Shown piece by piece: positions 19,019 to 27,112 of a stretch of DNA of 33,519 bases. The notes beneath the pieces are model-generated. The model was given only the letters and a program-made list of their open reading frames with translations. It searched no databases and was not told the DNA's origin. Both the position numbers and the translations under genes were made by a program. The stretch's first letter is position 1. Each line of letters opens with the position of its first letter. The stretch is from Nitrospinaceae bacterium (GTDB lineage: Bacteria; Nitrospinota; Nitrospinia; Nitrospinales; Nitrospinaceae), in NCBI GenBank assembly GCA_028278405.1, contig JANQEK010000033.1:1-33519 (forward strand), given 5' to 3'.

Positions 19019-19115
19019 CAGTCGGCCCTCTTTCCAGTATATATTTTGATACAATAGTCCTAATCATACGATACAGATTTCCTCAATGGGTTTCCGTTGG
19101 GGCGAAAGGAATTTA

Positions 19116-20303
19116 ATGAGTTTGACGGAGCGAAAAATTAAATATTTGGAGCCGGGTAAAGGCCGTCAGATTATTTGGGATAACGGCGGGTTTGGTGTTC
19201 AAGTGACTCCCGATGGAGAAAAAAGTTTTGTCCTGGAATATAAATTCAGTGAAATGACCAAGCTGATTACTCTTGGGACCTATCCGAAGATGAGTCTTGA
19301 TACCGCAAGACAACAGGCTCTGAAAGCCATGGAAATGGTCATGAAGGGGAAGGATCCCGAGGAGAAGGGGATTCCCGAGCCGGAAACAAGCGAGGATGAG
19401 AGTCCTGCAAGTCAAACGCCGACTTTCGATCAGATTAGAGAAAAGGCTACTGAGAAACTGGATCAGTTTAAAGGGAAAGCCTCCGAGCAGTTGGACAAGA
19501 TCAAGTCTTCCGACGCGCTGGATAAATTTAAGGAAAAGGCGACTGCTAAGCTGGATGAAATCAAGCAAAGAGTTGAAAAAAAGGTAACACACCCCCATGC
19601 AGAGGAAAAACCCGGCGGGAAAGTTATACTGCTGGACAAAAAAGCAAGAGTTGCGAAGGAGAAATCGAAACCCAAAAAGGAAAAAGCCAAAGCTCCAGCA
19701 AAAAAAGAAGAGCCGAAAACCCTGAAGGATTCGTTTGGCTACACTCTAAACAAAAATGAGCTCAAGACACTATGGTCCGGTTTGGAAAATTCGGACATGC
19801 CTCCCGCAAATCAGTTGGCCTTAAAACTAATGATAGTCACTGGGCAAAGATACCAAGAGGTTCTTCCAGCGAGGTGGGCGGATTTTGATTTAGTGTCCAA
19901 ATGGTGGACCATACCTGCAGATTTTACCAAGAACGGGAAAAAACATAAGGTCCCGTTAACCAACCTGGCTTCGGATCTTTTGAGAAAGATTAAAGAATTA
20001 TCGGGAATGTCCGGGGTTTTGTTCCCGATTCCAGGTGGTGCGACTCCTATAGAATCCAAGACCTTGTCTGAGGGGCTTCTCCGGGCTCAGGTCCGATTTG
20101 GGTTGAAGTTGTTTACCCTGCAGGATTTACAGGATAGCGTGGTGTGTCAGATGCTCGATAGCGGGGTCACGGAGTCTACCTTGTATAAGCTTTTGAATGA
20201 AGACGAGCCCACCGTGTTTGGACAGGAAGGTGGTAAAGTTAAAGACTCCGATATGCGTAAGGCTCTTGAGAAAATAGAAAAACTCCTGCCTAAGAGTTAT
20301 TAG
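19116..20303 (+). CDS. Tyrosine-recombinase-like protein lacking catalytic residues, with helical insert
   Basis: A 395-residue protein. Residues 1-90 match the P4-type integrase arm-binding domain (LTERKIKYLEPGK, GFGVQVTPDGEKSFVLEYK, TLGTYPKMSLDTARQQA). Residues about 103-156 are an amphipathic helical repeat with recurring KATxKLDxFKxK units, then a Lys-rich stretch. The catalytic-type domain begins near 205. Arg245 (TGQRYQEV) and the KNGKKHKVP lysines remain, but the usual HxxR is Q336-x2-Q339, the LNH histidine is Glu362 and no tyrosine nucleophile is in place. It is therefore probably not an active integrase but a DNA-binding derivative. ATG 19116 has GAAAGGA upstream; an in-frame ATG at 19086 is less likely. 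No tRNA or attachment repeats flank it. Confidence 0.78.
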   Translation: MSLTERKIKYLEPGKGRQIIWDNGGFGVQVTPDGEKSFVLEYKFSEMTKLITLGTYPKMSLDTARQQALKAMEMVMKGKDPEEKGIPEPETSEDESPASQTPTFDQIREKATEKLDQFKGKASEQLDKIKSSDALDKFKEKATAKLDEIKQRVEKKVTHPHAEEKPGGKVILLDKKARVAKEKSKPKKEKAKAPAKKEEPKTLKDSFGYTLNKNELKTLWSGLENSDMPPANQLALKLMIVTGQRYQEVLPARWADFDLVSKWWTIPADFTKNGKKHKVPLTNLASDLLRKIKELSGMSGVLFPIPGGATPIESKTLSEGLLRAQVRFGLKLFTLQDLQDSVVCQMLDSGVTESTLYKLLNEDEPTVFGQEGGKVKDSDMRKALEKIEKLLPKSY

Positions 20304-20963: not shown

Positions 20964-21225
20964 TTAAATCCACATCCTCCATGCATGATTCGTAGGCCCC
21001 ATTCAGTTTTAGAGGGAACCTGTGGGCGGGTTCTGGCCCTGTTTTATTTGATACTCGATCATACCCTCAAACCCCCCTCAAGCTCAAGAAAAACCCGGAT
21101 TCAGGCTATTTTATCGGGCGGAATTTTAAGTATGGGAGCCTATTTTTTGGTTTTCCCGGCAATTCTCTGCTATGATGGCTCCATTGTTACATACGGAACG
21201 ACCCGAAATTGAGGAGTTTTTTCAC
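20964..21225. other. Divergent intergenic region between the LRR and nuoB genes
   Basis: About 260 bases that should contain promoters for both genes. The sequence is mixed and I found no strong palindromes. GAGGAG near 21209-21214 serves nuoB. Confidence 0.5.
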
Positions 21226-21768
21226 ATGTCTGATTTAACCCAGTCCGAGCTGGAAATGAGTCTCGGCAATAATGTAATCGTGACCCAGATGACTCAGGCA
21301 GTCAATTGGGCGAGAAAATATTCCTTCTTTATTTATCCTTTCATTACCGCTTGTTGCGGAATGGAGTTCATGTCGGCTGCTGGTCCGCGTTATGATCTGG
21401 ACCGGTTTGGAGCCGCGTTTCCCCGGTTTTCTCCGCGTCAGGCGGATCTGCTGATGGTTGTGGGAACGATCAGCCACAAGCAGGCTCCGATCCTGGTGAA
21501 AGTGTACAATCAGATGGCAGAGCCGAAATGGGTAGTGGCATACGGAGTTTGTACCGTTTCCGGCGGGTTCTACGACAACTACGCCACGGTTATGGGCATC
21601 GACACCCTCATACCGGTCGACGTTTATATTCCAGGCTGTCCGCCACGTCCTGAAATGGTTATCGATGGTCTGATGAAATTGCAGGACAAGGTTCAACAGG
21701 AAACTCTGGCCGATCACGTCAAAGGCCCGGCACCTGTTACCCCCGCTGAGCGGCTGATCAATATTTAA
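21226..21768 (+). CDS. nuoB: NADH-quinone oxidoreductase subunit B (NuoB), isolated gene
   Basis: A 180-residue protein carrying the N2 iron-sulfur cluster of complex I. Ligand cysteines are C43-C44 (ACCGMEFM), C109 (YGVCTVSGGFYDNY) and C138 (PGCPPRPE), all in place. N2 passes electrons to quinone at the junction of the peripheral and membrane arms. ATG 21226 is preferred to an in-frame ATG at 21172 because GAGGAG precedes it at the right distance and the family starts here. Normally nuoB lies between nuoA and nuoC; here it stands alone with its own terminator. It could be a displaced member of the main complex or part of a second, partial complex. Confidence 0.93.
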   Translation: MSDLTQSELEMSLGNNVIVTQMTQAVNWARKYSFFIYPFITACCGMEFMSAAGPRYDLDRFGAAFPRFSPRQADLLMVVGTISHKQAPILVKVYNQMAEPKWVVAYGVCTVSGGFYDNYATVMGIDTLIPVDVYIPGCPPRPEMVIDGLMKLQDKVQQETLADHVKGPAPVTPAERLINI

Positions 21769-21787: not shown

Positions 21788-21823
21788 GGCCCCCTCGCAT
21801 CAAAGCGGGGGGGTCTTTTTTTT
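21788..21823 (+). terminator. Strong intrinsic terminator after nuoB
   Basis: An 11-pair GC-rich stem (21788-21798 with 21805-21815, two G-U pairs) with loop ATCAAA and eight T residues to 21823. The convergent lipoprotein gene ends inside it: its stop codon lies in the loop region and its last codons are read from the opposite strand. Confidence 0.93.
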
Positions 21824-22318
21824 GGTCTTGGCTTTATGGGGGCGGATCCCCTGCTTGAAAAAGTAGTCTTCCACAACACCGGTTTTTTCGTTTATCAATA
21901 GCCACAGTTTGTCGAATTTCGTATTGATTTGATCATAAGTAGCGACCATTAAAAAATACATCAGTTCCCGGCTTTCAGAAAAGTAAAAATAATACACACG
22001 GTGGTATTCGGTTATATCGATTTCAGGGGAAAACAAATCGAAAAAAGTATCGGATTCCACAATGGTTGCTCTTCGCGGTACCCGGTACTCTTTATCCGGA
22101 GTGCTGACTTTAGGGATGACCACTATTTCTCCGGGAGCGGAAATGGTGATGGGAGCTCCGAACCATTCCAGCGCTTCTCTTTTAAGGGTCTTCCCCGGTT
22201 TGATTTTTGCCACCCGGCCCGCTTTGATTTCAGTTCCACTGTATTTGAAAAGGGTGATGCAACCCGATAGAAGAAACAAGGAAATCGCCAGAAGAAATCG
22301 AGTTTTCCACCGCTTCAT
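21800..22318 (-). CDS. BamE/SmpA-like lipoprotein, paralogue 2
   Basis: A 172-residue lipoprotein: MKRWKTRFLLAISLFLLSGC gives a lipobox with the acylated cysteine at residue 20. The mature part starts with KIKPGKTLKREALEWFGAPI, the G.T..EV...LG.P-type turn of small outer-membrane BamE/SmpA-like domains. It then has strands ending in KLWLLINEKTGVVEDYFF. It is clearly related to the neighbouring lipoprotein (22321-22821), with the same order of motifs. ATG 22318 has GGGAGG upstream and is two bases after the preceding stop. The last codons lie in the nuoB terminator and code for a basic KAKTKKKTPPL tail. BamE function is not proven; the family only suggests an outer-membrane lipoprotein. Confidence 0.82.
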   Translation of the reverse strand: MKRWKTRFLLAISLFLLSGCITLFKYSGTEIKAGRVAKIKPGKTLKREALEWFGAPITISAPGEIVVIPKVSTPDKEYRVPRRATIVESDTFFDLFSPEIDITEYHRVYYFYFSESRELMYFLMVATYDQINTKFDKLWLLINEKTGVVEDYFFKQGIRPHKAKTKKKTPPL

Positions 22319-22320
22319 GA

Positions 22321-22821
22321 TTATTTTTCCTCCCGTTCCAGAAATACAAAGTCCTCCACTTTTCCGGATTCGCGGTTCACTAAAACCCACAATTCACTGA
22401 ACTGCAGGTTGCCGAAAGTGGCGGGGACACTTATAAAAAAGCCTCCTATTGGAATAGGAAGGCCAAACCCGTTTATATCCTCTCCTTCGTTCAAATAGTA
22501 ATAAACGACATGGTGTTCGGAAACGGGGTGTTTCTCTAAAAACTTTTCAAAGAAAAACGTGGAATCGACTTCACGCATTTTCACTTGTCCGTCTTCCAAG
22601 GAAGGGAGCGCAACCACATCATTTTTCTTGGCGAGAACTTCCGGAGGGCCAAACCACTGTAGAAGATTTCTTTGGGTCGTTTTTCCCGGTTCAATTTTTT
22701 TTACGATGTCCTTTTCCAGGGTCCGGTCATATTGAACCGAACCCCAGACACATCCCCCGACTGGGAGCAGAGCGATCAGCGTCAAGGCAGATAGTTTTTT
22801 GAACCGAGGACTAGATATCAT
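22321..22821 (-). CDS. BamE/SmpA-like lipoprotein, paralogue 1
   Basis: A 166-residue lipoprotein: the signal MISSPRFKKLSALTLIALLP is followed by VGGC as lipobox. Mature motifs are KIEPGKTTQRNLLQWFGPPE, HHVVYYYLNEGE and ELWVLVNRESGKVEDFVF, matching its downstream paralogue in order and spacing, so the two arose by tandem duplication. I chose ATG 22821, which puts the signal peptide at the N-terminus; a longer frame runs to 23025 but overlaps the upstream gene. It overlaps the preceding CsgG-like gene by 11 bases, showing an operon of three lipoprotein genes. Confidence 0.82.
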   Translation of the reverse strand: MISSPRFKKLSALTLIALLPVGGCVWGSVQYDRTLEKDIVKKIEPGKTTQRNLLQWFGPPEVLAKKNDVVALPSLEDGQVKMREVDSTFFFEKFLEKHPVSEHHVVYYYLNEGEDINGFGLPIPIGGFFISVPATFGNLQFSELWVLVNRESGKVEDFVFLEREEK

Positions 22822-23437
22822 TCGAGTCTTTATCCTTGTTGGATGAAGCGCTTGACGGTAATGGTTCAATCCATTTCCCGTCTGCGAGGCCTTTGAGAAC
22901 TCTGAGAAAATCCCTGCCTGCCGCCTCCGTTGCCAGCCGAACGTATTCCTGAAAGTTATCCCAAAGGAAGACCCAGGACGGGTACCCAATAGTGTGTGTG
23001 GCAATACTTTCCCCGGTTTCAACATCGATCAGCTGTAGCGAAAGTTTTACGGGCGATTGCGATATCTTTCTGGCTTCAATGTTTCCTAAAAATACGGCGT
23101 CTGCATCCAGGAGCCGGGCGGCCTGCCGGGCCTCTTCGACGGAAAGGGCTTTCTCAGACATGCTTATTCCATTGCGCATTATTTCGATTTCAGCGTAAGT
23201 GGGGGTCACAATGGTATAACGCTGCTGCTTTTGGAGATAAAATGAAAACCATTCAGGAGAAGTTCTTCGGAATTTTTTGTCCCCGGAAAAAGGGAGGACG
23301 GCAATCTTTTCCCAAGAGGAAGGGGTAAAGCTTTCGTTGAAATCAAAACGTTTTACAGTGACTCCCGGTTTGCTGCTGCAACCGAAAAGAACACATAGAA
23401 ATGCCAGAAACAGACTCCAGCGGACTTTGCTCTGCAC
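22811..23437 (-). CDS. Lipoprotein with CsgG/LpoB-like fold (GNA1162-type)
   Basis: A 208-residue lipoprotein with LFGC lipobox near residue 20. The mature sequence has the pattern of CsgG/LpoB-like periplasmic domains: WEKIAVLPFSGDK, then YTIVTPTYAEIEI, then EEARQAARLLDADAVFLGNIEA, VKLSLQLIDVETGESIAT and a final long helix REFLRVLKGL-like. Such proteins assemble on the inner face of the outer membrane or regulate peptidoglycan synthases. It is the first gene of the three-lipoprotein operon. The C-terminal tail is Ser/Asp/Lys-rich. The specific partner is not evident. Confidence 0.75.
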   Translation of the reverse strand: MQSKVRWSLFLAFLCVLFGCSSKPGVTVKRFDFNESFTPSSWEKIAVLPFSGDKKFRRTSPEWFSFYLQKQQRYTIVTPTYAEIEIMRNGISMSEKALSVEEARQAARLLDADAVFLGNIEARKISQSPVKLSLQLIDVETGESIATHTIGYPSWVFLWDNFQEYVRLATEAAGRDFLRVLKGLADGKWIEPLPSSASSNKDKDSNDI

Positions 23438-23489: not shown

Positions 23490-24776
23490 TTATTGCAAAG
23501 CGGCGAGATTTTTTCTGATGGTTACTATCCACGCGCGGGCAGCTTCCTTTTCTACTGGGGTGAAGCCGGGAAGCTGAATCATGGTTTCAACGCCTTTTAT
23601 TTTTTGATTCACGTATTCCGCAAAGGCTTGCGGGTTGTCGGCGGCAAGTCGTATTTCACCCGCGCCATCCAGGAATCTCTTTTTTAAATAATGAAAGTAC
23701 AAAGCGAGGCGCTGAGACGGATCCTTCGGACCTTTGCCATACTGCAGATGCATTAGAGCTTCTTTACGCCGATCAATAATGTAACCCAGCCGTGTGTTAT
23801 CGTCTTTGTTGAATTGAAGGTCGAATACACCAAACGCCCAGTCCTTTGCTTCTTCACTCACTTTCAATTGTGGAAGAGGGAGGTGTTTGACTGCGGCAAT
23901 TTCCAATAGTAAGGACCGTACTCCGGTGCGGTCGCTCCAGTAGGCTGCTTGTAAGGGGATGTCACGATTCAATCGGCTGACTTCTGCAAGAACGGGTTCC
24001 ATTTTGGCGATGGCCTCCGACAACCTCTGCAGCGTGGCCTCATCAAATTCATTGAGAAACCATTGTGTTTCCCTAGGCACATTCGATTTCTCCCGAATAT
24101 TCCTTTTGAAATATGCATTAAGAATCTGGGTCATGTCCGGTATAAAAAACGCTTCCAGGACTTTTTCAAAATACGGGAAATTCAGGATCAAAAACTGAGG
24201 GTCGGACCGGATATTCAGTCCATAAGCTTCCAGTTCGTTGACGTGGCCCAGGAAGGATTGTGTGAGGTGCAGTGTCTCATGGAGATGGGTTGCTTCTCCG
24301 TAGACTTTAGAGTCGATCAGGATACTTCCGGGAGAAATACGGATAGTGTCGAACGTGGCGTGCGCCAACTGACCGGGTTGGAGCAGAGCATCGGAATAGG
24401 GTTGAATAATGTATTGGCGTAGCGGTACGGGACGGTTTCCGGGTAGGGTTTCCTTCAAGCGGCCCAGCACGCGCTTCATGCGCCCCGCTGCCTTTTGAAC
24501 CAGTTGTTCCGGCTGGTGGCATTTTCCGCAATCGTAATTCTCAAATCCGGGGATCAGGAAGGTTGTGATGCCGGATCCATCCACCGGTTGCCGCGCGACA
24601 TAGTTTTTCAGTGTTCTGCCCGTCAGGCCGGGGTCTTGCTTGGGGAGATGTTGGGAAACCAGGGAATCGAGCTCGCCAAGTCCGATTCGAGGCTCTTCGG
24701 CCAGCAGTTGACCGGACCCTCCCAGCCACAGGGCTATCGTGAGCGTGATCCAGGCCCTCTGTTTGGGCCTGAGCAT
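23490..24776 (-). CDS. Periplasmic protein with one heme c site and an HExxH zinc-protease motif
   Basis: A 428-residue protein with a signal peptide (cleavage near LLA-EE, residue 26). One heme c motif, C83-GKC-H87, lies in an otherwise undefined domain. A zincin motif follows: H166-E167-TL-H170, in EATHLHETLHLTQ, with a glutamate-rich NELEAYG segment at residues 180-186 that can supply the third ligand. The rest (about 190-428) is helical and unfamiliar. It is translated directly after the diheme/ethylbenzene-dehydrogenase-domain gene: the last base of that gene's TGA is the first base of this ATG. The tie suggests a shared periplasmic complex, perhaps a maturation or assembly protease. I know no named family that combines both motifs. 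Confidence 0.72.
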   Translation of the reverse strand: MLRPKQRAWITLTIALWLGGSGQLLAEEPRIGLGELDSLVSQHLPKQDPGLTGRTLKNYVARQPVDGSGITTFLIPGFENYDCGKCHQPEQLVQKAAGRMKRVLGRLKETLPGNRPVPLRQYIIQPYSDALLQPGQLAHATFDTIRISPGSILIDSKVYGEATHLHETLHLTQSFLGHVNELEAYGLNIRSDPQFLILNFPYFEKVLEAFFIPDMTQILNAYFKRNIREKSNVPRETQWFLNEFDEATLQRLSEAIAKMEPVLAEVSRLNRDIPLQAAYWSDRTGVRSLLLEIAAVKHLPLPQLKVSEEAKDWAFGVFDLQFNKDDNTRLGYIIDRRKEALMHLQYGKGPKDPSQRLALYFHYLKKRFLDGAGEIRLAADNPQAFAEYVNQKIKGVETMIQLPGFTPVEKEAARAWIVTIRKNLAALQ

Positions 24777-26608: not shown

Positions 26609-27112
26609 TTACCGGGCTTTGCGGACCATTTTGACTCCCTGGTCCAGGTCACCCAAATCTTTTAGATTCCAGTAATCTTCGCGTTGACCCAAACCAAAGT
26701 ACCAGGCATTGTCGAGGTTGCGTTCGGTGCCGGTCCAAAGATAATAGCTGCCGCCCGAGGCAAACACTTCTGGAAGGCCAATGGGGTCACCGTCCTTGCT
26801 TTCAACCGGTCGTTTGGAATCCCACAACTGCTTTAGTTCTTCCAGAGTCGGCAAGCGCCAATCATCATATCCGGCAAACTTTTCAGAATTTTTACCGTCA
26901 ACATATTCCAGAGCCTCATACCAGTTCATCCCCTTTTTCCTGTCATGATAAGAGTCCGTTTTCTGCCACATCAGGCCGGTACGGGAATCTAAAACGGTTC
27001 CCTTTGAATCAACGGAAAATCGTGCCGATTCAGCCCAGGCGGGGAAAACAAGAATTCCAATCAATAAAGAGGGGATTAACCAAAAGCTCCTGAATTTATC
27101 TCGAACTTTCAT
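26609..27112 (-). CDS. DUF1566 (Lcl-type) secreted protein
   Basis: A 167-residue protein with a signal peptide (cleavage near AWAES, residue 27). The mature part has the DUF1566 pattern: TVLDSRTGLMWQKTD, MNWYEALEYVD, YDDWRLPTLEELKQLWD, YLWTGTERNLDNAWYF and a final VRKAR. These domains resemble C-type-lectin-like/formylglycine-type folds and are usually surface or secreted, but the function is unsettled. It lies 48 bases before the NxrC-like gene on the same strand and may share its transcript. Confidence 0.87.
   Translation of the reverse strand: MKVRDKFRSFWLIPSLLIGILVFPAWAESARFSVDSKGTVLDSRTGLMWQKTDSYHDRKKGMNWYEALEYVDGKNSEKFAGYDDWRLPTLEELKQLWDSKRPVESKDGDPIGLPEVFASGGSYYLWTGTERNLDNAWYFGLGQREDYWNLKDLGDLDQGVKMVRKAR

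Follow-up and report, generated by a model that had tools for sequence, protein, structure and literature searches.

Bacteria of the Nitrospina type oxidise nitrite and are abundant in the sea. A component denoted alt_NxrC was described in the genome of Nitrospina gracilis and proposed to transfer electrons from nitrite oxidoreductase (NXR) to the respiratory chain (PMC3578206). In the mitochondrial processing peptidase (MPP)/bc1 system, a zinc-protease fold is active in plants and usually forms inactive core subunits elsewhere (PMC12731061). In Geobacter, OzpA processes OmcZ, and the gene for the protease is next to that of the c-type cytochrome (PMC9473688). As for metal sites, the published motif of M60-like proteins (PF13402) is HEXXHX(8,28)E (PMC3267712). 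Here we analysed a stretch of DNA of 33,519 nucleotides (the window) from a Nitrospinaceae bacterium whose assembly of 3.16 Mb is 95% complete. One of its genes codes for a protein, hereafter heme-gluzincin, that is best read as an exported mono-heme gluzincin and as the representative of a new protein family, seen in one Nitrospinota order among the sampled genomes.

Translation of the gene places the CGKCH and HETLH motifs at the residues given in the first-pass annotation, and a single predicted exported protein harbours one CxxCH and one HExxH (Table 1). The glutamates that had been reported at residues 181-183 are found at 181 and 183, residue 182 being a leucine. Export, also proposed at that stage, is supported by a Sec-type signal peptide pattern read from the N-terminal sequence, MLRPKQR-AWITLTIALWLGGSG-QLLA; model confidence is low at residues 20-26.

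Table 1. Positions in the window of the heme-gluzincin gene, of its motifs and of the genes upstream of it.
Feature	Position	Strand	Basis
Heme-gluzincin gene	23490..24776	minus	ORF and translation; ATG start, product of 428 aa plus stop
Signal peptide region, residues 1 to about 26 (predicted)	24699..24776	minus	Charged/hydrophobic/LLA pattern
CGKCH heme c attachment motif, residues 83-87	24516..24530	minus	C83, C86, H87 invariant; between strand 69-75 and helix 89-110 (model)
HETLH zincin motif, residues 166-170	24267..24281	minus	H166, E167, H170 invariant; helix 162-170, high-confidence region of the model
NELEA, residues 180-184, E181 as proposed third zinc ligand	24225..24239	minus	N180, E181, A184 invariant; helix 178-191 (model)
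AHATFD, residues 138-143, edge strand	24348..24365	minus	A138, H139, T141, D143 invariant; strands 138-141 and 144-147 (model)
alt-NxrC-type subunit P0002, 594 aa	24776..26560	minus	PF13442, PF00034, PF09459; PDB 6h5l_B, 7b04_C
Exported Lcl_C-domain protein, first gene of a probable three-gene operon	26609..27112	minus	PF07603; conserved order

Among 42 distinct homologues that share 41-81% identity, C83, C86, H87, H166, E167, H170 and E181 are identical throughout, as are N180, A184 and Y185. Variation of the HExxH motif among orthologues had been set beforehand as a finding that would speak against the annotation, and the motif is invariant in all 42. E183 is kept in 41 of them; the exception, L056, has NELAA, which makes E181 a better candidate than E183 for the third ligand. 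Conservation is densest in the zinc-site region, with 27 invariant positions among the 80 residues from 127 to 206, and a single position is invariant between residues 367 and 426. H43 and H139 are invariant and represent candidate distal heme ligands, while the 42-homologue alignment contains no invariant Met. When the mature sequence was shuffled 20,000 times, HExxH appeared in 1.7% of the trials, CxxCH in 0.01% and both together in none. Of the two lines of sequence evidence, conservation argues more strongly than shuffling that both motifs are real. We regard a gluzincin-type metal site as highly probable, and the same holds for the covalent attachment of a heme.

An AlphaFold2 run on the 42-sequence alignment yielded a model with a mean pLDDT of 92.9 and a pTM of 0.88. 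In this model, strands 59-65 and 69-75 are followed by the CxxCH loop, a long helix (89-110) and strands 121-124, 138-141 and 144-147, after which come a helix, the two helices with HExxH (162-170) and the Glu (178-191), and further helices. The first-pass annotation had named an HExxH lying outside a helix as grounds for rejection; the motif is predicted to be on a helix, with E181 on the next one. Such an order of elements would be anticipated for a zincin, and the heme motif immediately precedes the backing helix. According to the model, the heme site is embedded within the putative protease fold and is not fused on as a cytochrome domain.

Foldseek returned no significant match for the full model, the best hit being an M1 enzyme at E 0.83, and a structural second look had M1 and M61 peptidases among the matches listed, with Z of 6.7-8.2. 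The domain comprising residues 46-300 was folded alone with a pLDDT of 93.0. Its best Foldseek match was EryP, a zinc metallopeptidase (E 0.02), and the best 50 matches of a structural comparison were all M1-type folds with Z of 7.7-8.6, values to be read with the tool's caution that a Z near 8 can reflect a common arrangement. One of these 50, 7edx_B, belongs to TFIID, a complex with an M1-like fold in its TAF2 subunit. Residues 12-255 of the domain model align on PepN 193-430. PepN has HEYFH at 297-301 and its glutamate at position 320, and the HExxH of the domain model (121-125) fits this register. Based on these models, an M1-type zincin fold is likely.

At the sequence level, searches of Pfam, NCBIfam and the PDB with the protein and with the family alignment revealed no relative. 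No cytochrome family of Pfam or NCBIfam matched, and the resemblance to cytochrome c3 around CxxCH is at chance level (E 1.2 or worse). Membership of the M1 family was considered and rejected, as heme-gluzincin has HExxH-x10-E (x12 to E183) versus the x18 spacing of M1 enzymes and has no GxMEN. The latter motif is absent from both the window protein and the family consensus, with AHxTFD at what we infer to be the corresponding place (AHATFD in the window protein). The M1 Pfam profile (PF01433) matched none of the 42 members at E<=1. An hhalign comparison with 31 diverse M1 domains gave E 0.06 with the motif not aligned, and a narrower M1 profile also failed to align. We therefore claim a resemblance of fold to M1 enzymes and not sequence homology. 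With Peptidase_MA_2 (PF13485), hhalign gave E 0.0076 at a probability of 5% with HExxH in register, compared with E 8e-13 for the control alignment of M1 with the same family; the Pfam search gave no match to it. A literature search for proteins that pair CxxCH with HExxH returned only unrelated papers, and further searches revealed no description of the gene.

Homologues of heme-gluzincin were found in 55 of 77 Nitrospinota genomes. All 55 belong to the window's order, represented by 64 genomes, and none of the 13 Nitrospinota genomes from other families has one. The nine genomes of the order in which the gene is missing include several incomplete ones. A profile search of 291 genomes recovered the same 55 and no more, leaving about 214 non-Nitrospinota genomes without a match. 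Similarly, no homologue was detected in 48 genomes from the phyla of G104, G225 and G151, three lineages in which Nxr-like beta subunits occur; these samples are small and overlap slightly with the 291. The total outside the phylum is about 260 genomes, and it is to this sample that the restriction to one order applies. No relative was found in plasmid records. Pieces of the gene, 79-84% identical, are in a record titled Nitrospirota bacterium CSMAG_575 (L005 and L006); its contigs correspond to G020, which is placed in the window's genus, and the title looks like a mislabel.

The gene directly upstream, P0002, codes for two cytochrome c domains and an ethylbenzene-dehydrogenase/NxrC heme b domain. 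It thereby corresponds to the description of alt_NxrC, namely two heme c sites plus an NxrC/EB_dh heme b domain. It matches PDB entries 6h5l_B (E 2.7e-49), deposited as a conserved hypothetical cytochrome protein, and 7b04_C, subunit C of nitrite oxidoreductase (E 1e-25). The main text of the N. gracilis genome paper mentions neither peptidase nor protease, and the linked heme-gluzincin gene thus appears to be undescribed there (PMC3578206). The first-pass annotation had taken the two genes to be translationally coupled. The TGA of the cytochrome gene and the ATG of the heme-gluzincin gene overlap by one base (TGATG), which makes this coupling plausible from the sequence. Many members have a spacing of -1 or -4 bases, and in others the two genes are tens to a few hundred bases apart, with start codons often uncertain.

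The common gene order is Lcl_C, alt-NxrC and heme-gluzincin, with nuoB downstream and convergent. The synteny of the pair, which had been put forward for verification, is borne out: in 49 of the 55 genomes, with positions tallied by hand, the alt-NxrC-type gene is directly upstream of heme-gluzincin. Linkage is undecidable at contig ends in two further genomes (G022 and G050), and the genes are unlinked in the other four (G007, G008, G010 and G011). In these four, alt-NxrC retains its Lcl_C neighbour elsewhere, and heme-gluzincin remains beside nuoB and an LRR gene in G007 and G011. One genome that is 94% complete, G012, has alt-NxrC without detectable heme-gluzincin. Six genomes without heme-gluzincin also have no alt-NxrC orthologue, only paralogues, which missing contigs could explain. 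Across 29 linked pairs, the pairwise distances of heme-gluzincin correlate with those of alt-NxrC (r = 0.86), a value computed without a control gene that may mainly reflect shared ancestry.

The host genome harbours two paralogues of P0002, at G000:C14:1079-2479 (51% identical) and G000:C14:34683-36041 (44%). A paralogue of roughly 50% identity is nearly universal in the order, mostly on contigs without a heme-gluzincin match. On the other side of heme-gluzincin, the NuoB-like gene (21172-21768, plus strand) is convergent with it and 84-97% identical across the order, and no other nuo gene is beside it within the window. Three small lipoprotein-like genes (21800-23437, minus strand) lie between the two. 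They are present in L001 and L003 and missing at the same place in L004; the mechanical ORFs of neighbours overlap. One of the three genes weakly resembles DUF3280, below the cut-off. Elsewhere in the window, a putative small exported YHS-like protein is encoded next to a gene of the cytochrome P460 family (PF16694; 14340-15477, plus strand). An integrase-type gene (19086-20303, plus strand) combines integrase arm and phage-integrase domains between which lies a long, charged, helical stretch similar to apolipoprotein repeats, and it is kept at the same place in close relatives.

In our proposal, H166, H170 and E181 would coordinate zinc and E167 would act as general base, within an M1-aminopeptidase-type catalytic domain that is devoid of the N-terminal beta domain of M1 enzymes. 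C83 and C86 would carry a c-type heme at the start of the backing helix, with H87 as the proximal ligand and H43 or H139 as the candidate distal ligand. Made together with the alt-NxrC cytochrome, heme-gluzincin would act in the periplasm as a zinc peptidase for the processing or quality control of alt-NxrC or its complex, and the heme might dock the enzyme to an electron-transfer partner or report the redox state of that partner. Zinc and heme occupancy, catalysis, substrate and redox role are what we infer. In the first-pass annotation the protein was read as a redox-linked or assembly protease for a respiratory complex, an interpretation that our results support in part, as regards the two motifs in one exported protein, their invariance and the linkage to the cytochrome gene. 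The reading as a whole, an exported mono-heme c gluzincin acting as a zinc peptidase in the service of the alt-NxrC complex, is put forward tentatively. As for its parts, we lean towards an active peptidase, as the invariance of E167 favours catalysis over a structural zinc. A function tied to alt-NxrC is rather probable, and the near-constant pairing of the genes suggests the alt-NxrC complex as a substrate or docking partner. With a heme attached inside the catalytic domain, the active site would share its fold with a redox centre, and the heme might gate the activity, dock to the cytochrome or serve as a mere electron carrier. Redox gating of the activity appears unlikely. Similarly unlikely is a heme-gated zinc protease, in which the nitrite-oxidation chain would set the redox state of the covalent heme inside the catalytic fold and thereby control whether the alt-NxrC complex is proteolysed.

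The main rival to this proposal is a subunit with a re-used protease scaffold. Heme-gluzincin might belong to the alt-NxrC complex as an accessory subunit with an electron-transfer or structural role, in which the heme carries electrons and the zincin fold is an inactive scaffold with a structural zinc. Its near-constant linkage and co-inheritance with the cytochrome gene and its invariant heme motif would fit such a role, for which the inactive core proteins of bc1 (complex III) provide a precedent (PMC12731061). However, inactive scaffolds tend to lose the general base, whereas E167 is invariant (42/42), conservation is centred on the zinc-site region and not on the sequence flanking the heme, and the gene persists unlinked in four genomes. 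We consider this alternative possible but not probable.

Heme-gluzincin might also be a general periplasmic zinc peptidase involved in peptide turnover or in quality control under oxidative conditions, its proximity to alt-NxrC being inherited gene order. This would account for the survival of unlinked copies in G007, G008, G010 and G011, and nuoB and the LRR gene also stay nearby, so that gene order in this region is conserved generally. Yet these two genes are on the other side, with nuoB convergent, whereas alt-NxrC is codirectional and overlaps by 1-4 bases in many genomes. The absence of both heme-gluzincin and the alt-NxrC orthologue from six genomes also argues against a general role, with the proviso of missing contigs, and we find such a role unlikely. 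Very unlikely is a metal site, with zinc or iron, that catalyses a non-peptidase reaction such as a different hydrolysis or redox chemistry involving the nearby heme. The HExxH-x10-E spacing and the loss of GxMEN do depart from characterised M1 enzymes, and the invariant H139 of the edge strand could add a ligand near the metal, but it is peptidases that usually have HExxH and a Glu arranged on two consecutive helices. Finally, HExxH alone does arise in shuffled sequences (1.7%), but the absence of both motifs together from all 20,000 shuffles and their invariance in 42/42 homologues, the most distant at about 41% identity, make it extremely improbable that they are coincidental and bind neither heme nor zinc.

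As a conserved and undescribed partner gene of alt-NxrC, which has been proposed for the exit of electrons from NXR, heme-gluzincin provides a concrete new component for study. Should both heme and zinc be bound, a c-type heme would be built into a protease fold, a combination of which no precedent was found in the libraries and literature searched, and a direct link between proteolysis and respiratory redox state would be possible. The first-pass annotation had anticipated a new arrangement. This stands for the heme within the protease fold and not for the association of a protease with respiratory systems, since proteases tied to respiratory complexes or cytochromes were already known; the novelty is the embedding of the heme.

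Several described systems share part of these features. OzpA and OmcZ resemble our pair in that a protease-like gene adjoins a cytochrome gene, but OzpA is a subtilisin-like serine protease without heme. Plant MPP/bc1 similarly ties a zinc-protease fold to a respiratory complex, but the fold is of the M16 type, has no heme of its own and is on the matrix side of mitochondria. The x10 spacing of heme-gluzincin falls in the HEXXHX(8,28)E range of M60-like gluzincins; these have no heme and other organisms and substrates, and heme-gluzincin does not match PF13402. A further likeness is to the M1 catalytic domain (PepN, ERAP1, LTA4H; PF01433), over which residues 57-300 of the model align, with the same predicted order of strands, backing helix, edge strand, HExxH helix and Glu helix. 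The NE..A around the third ligand also resembles the NEGFA of M1 enzymes. The latter have the x18 spacing, GxMEN and an N-terminal beta domain, all absent from heme-gluzincin, which in turn differs from them by the c-type heme motif in its catalytic domain.
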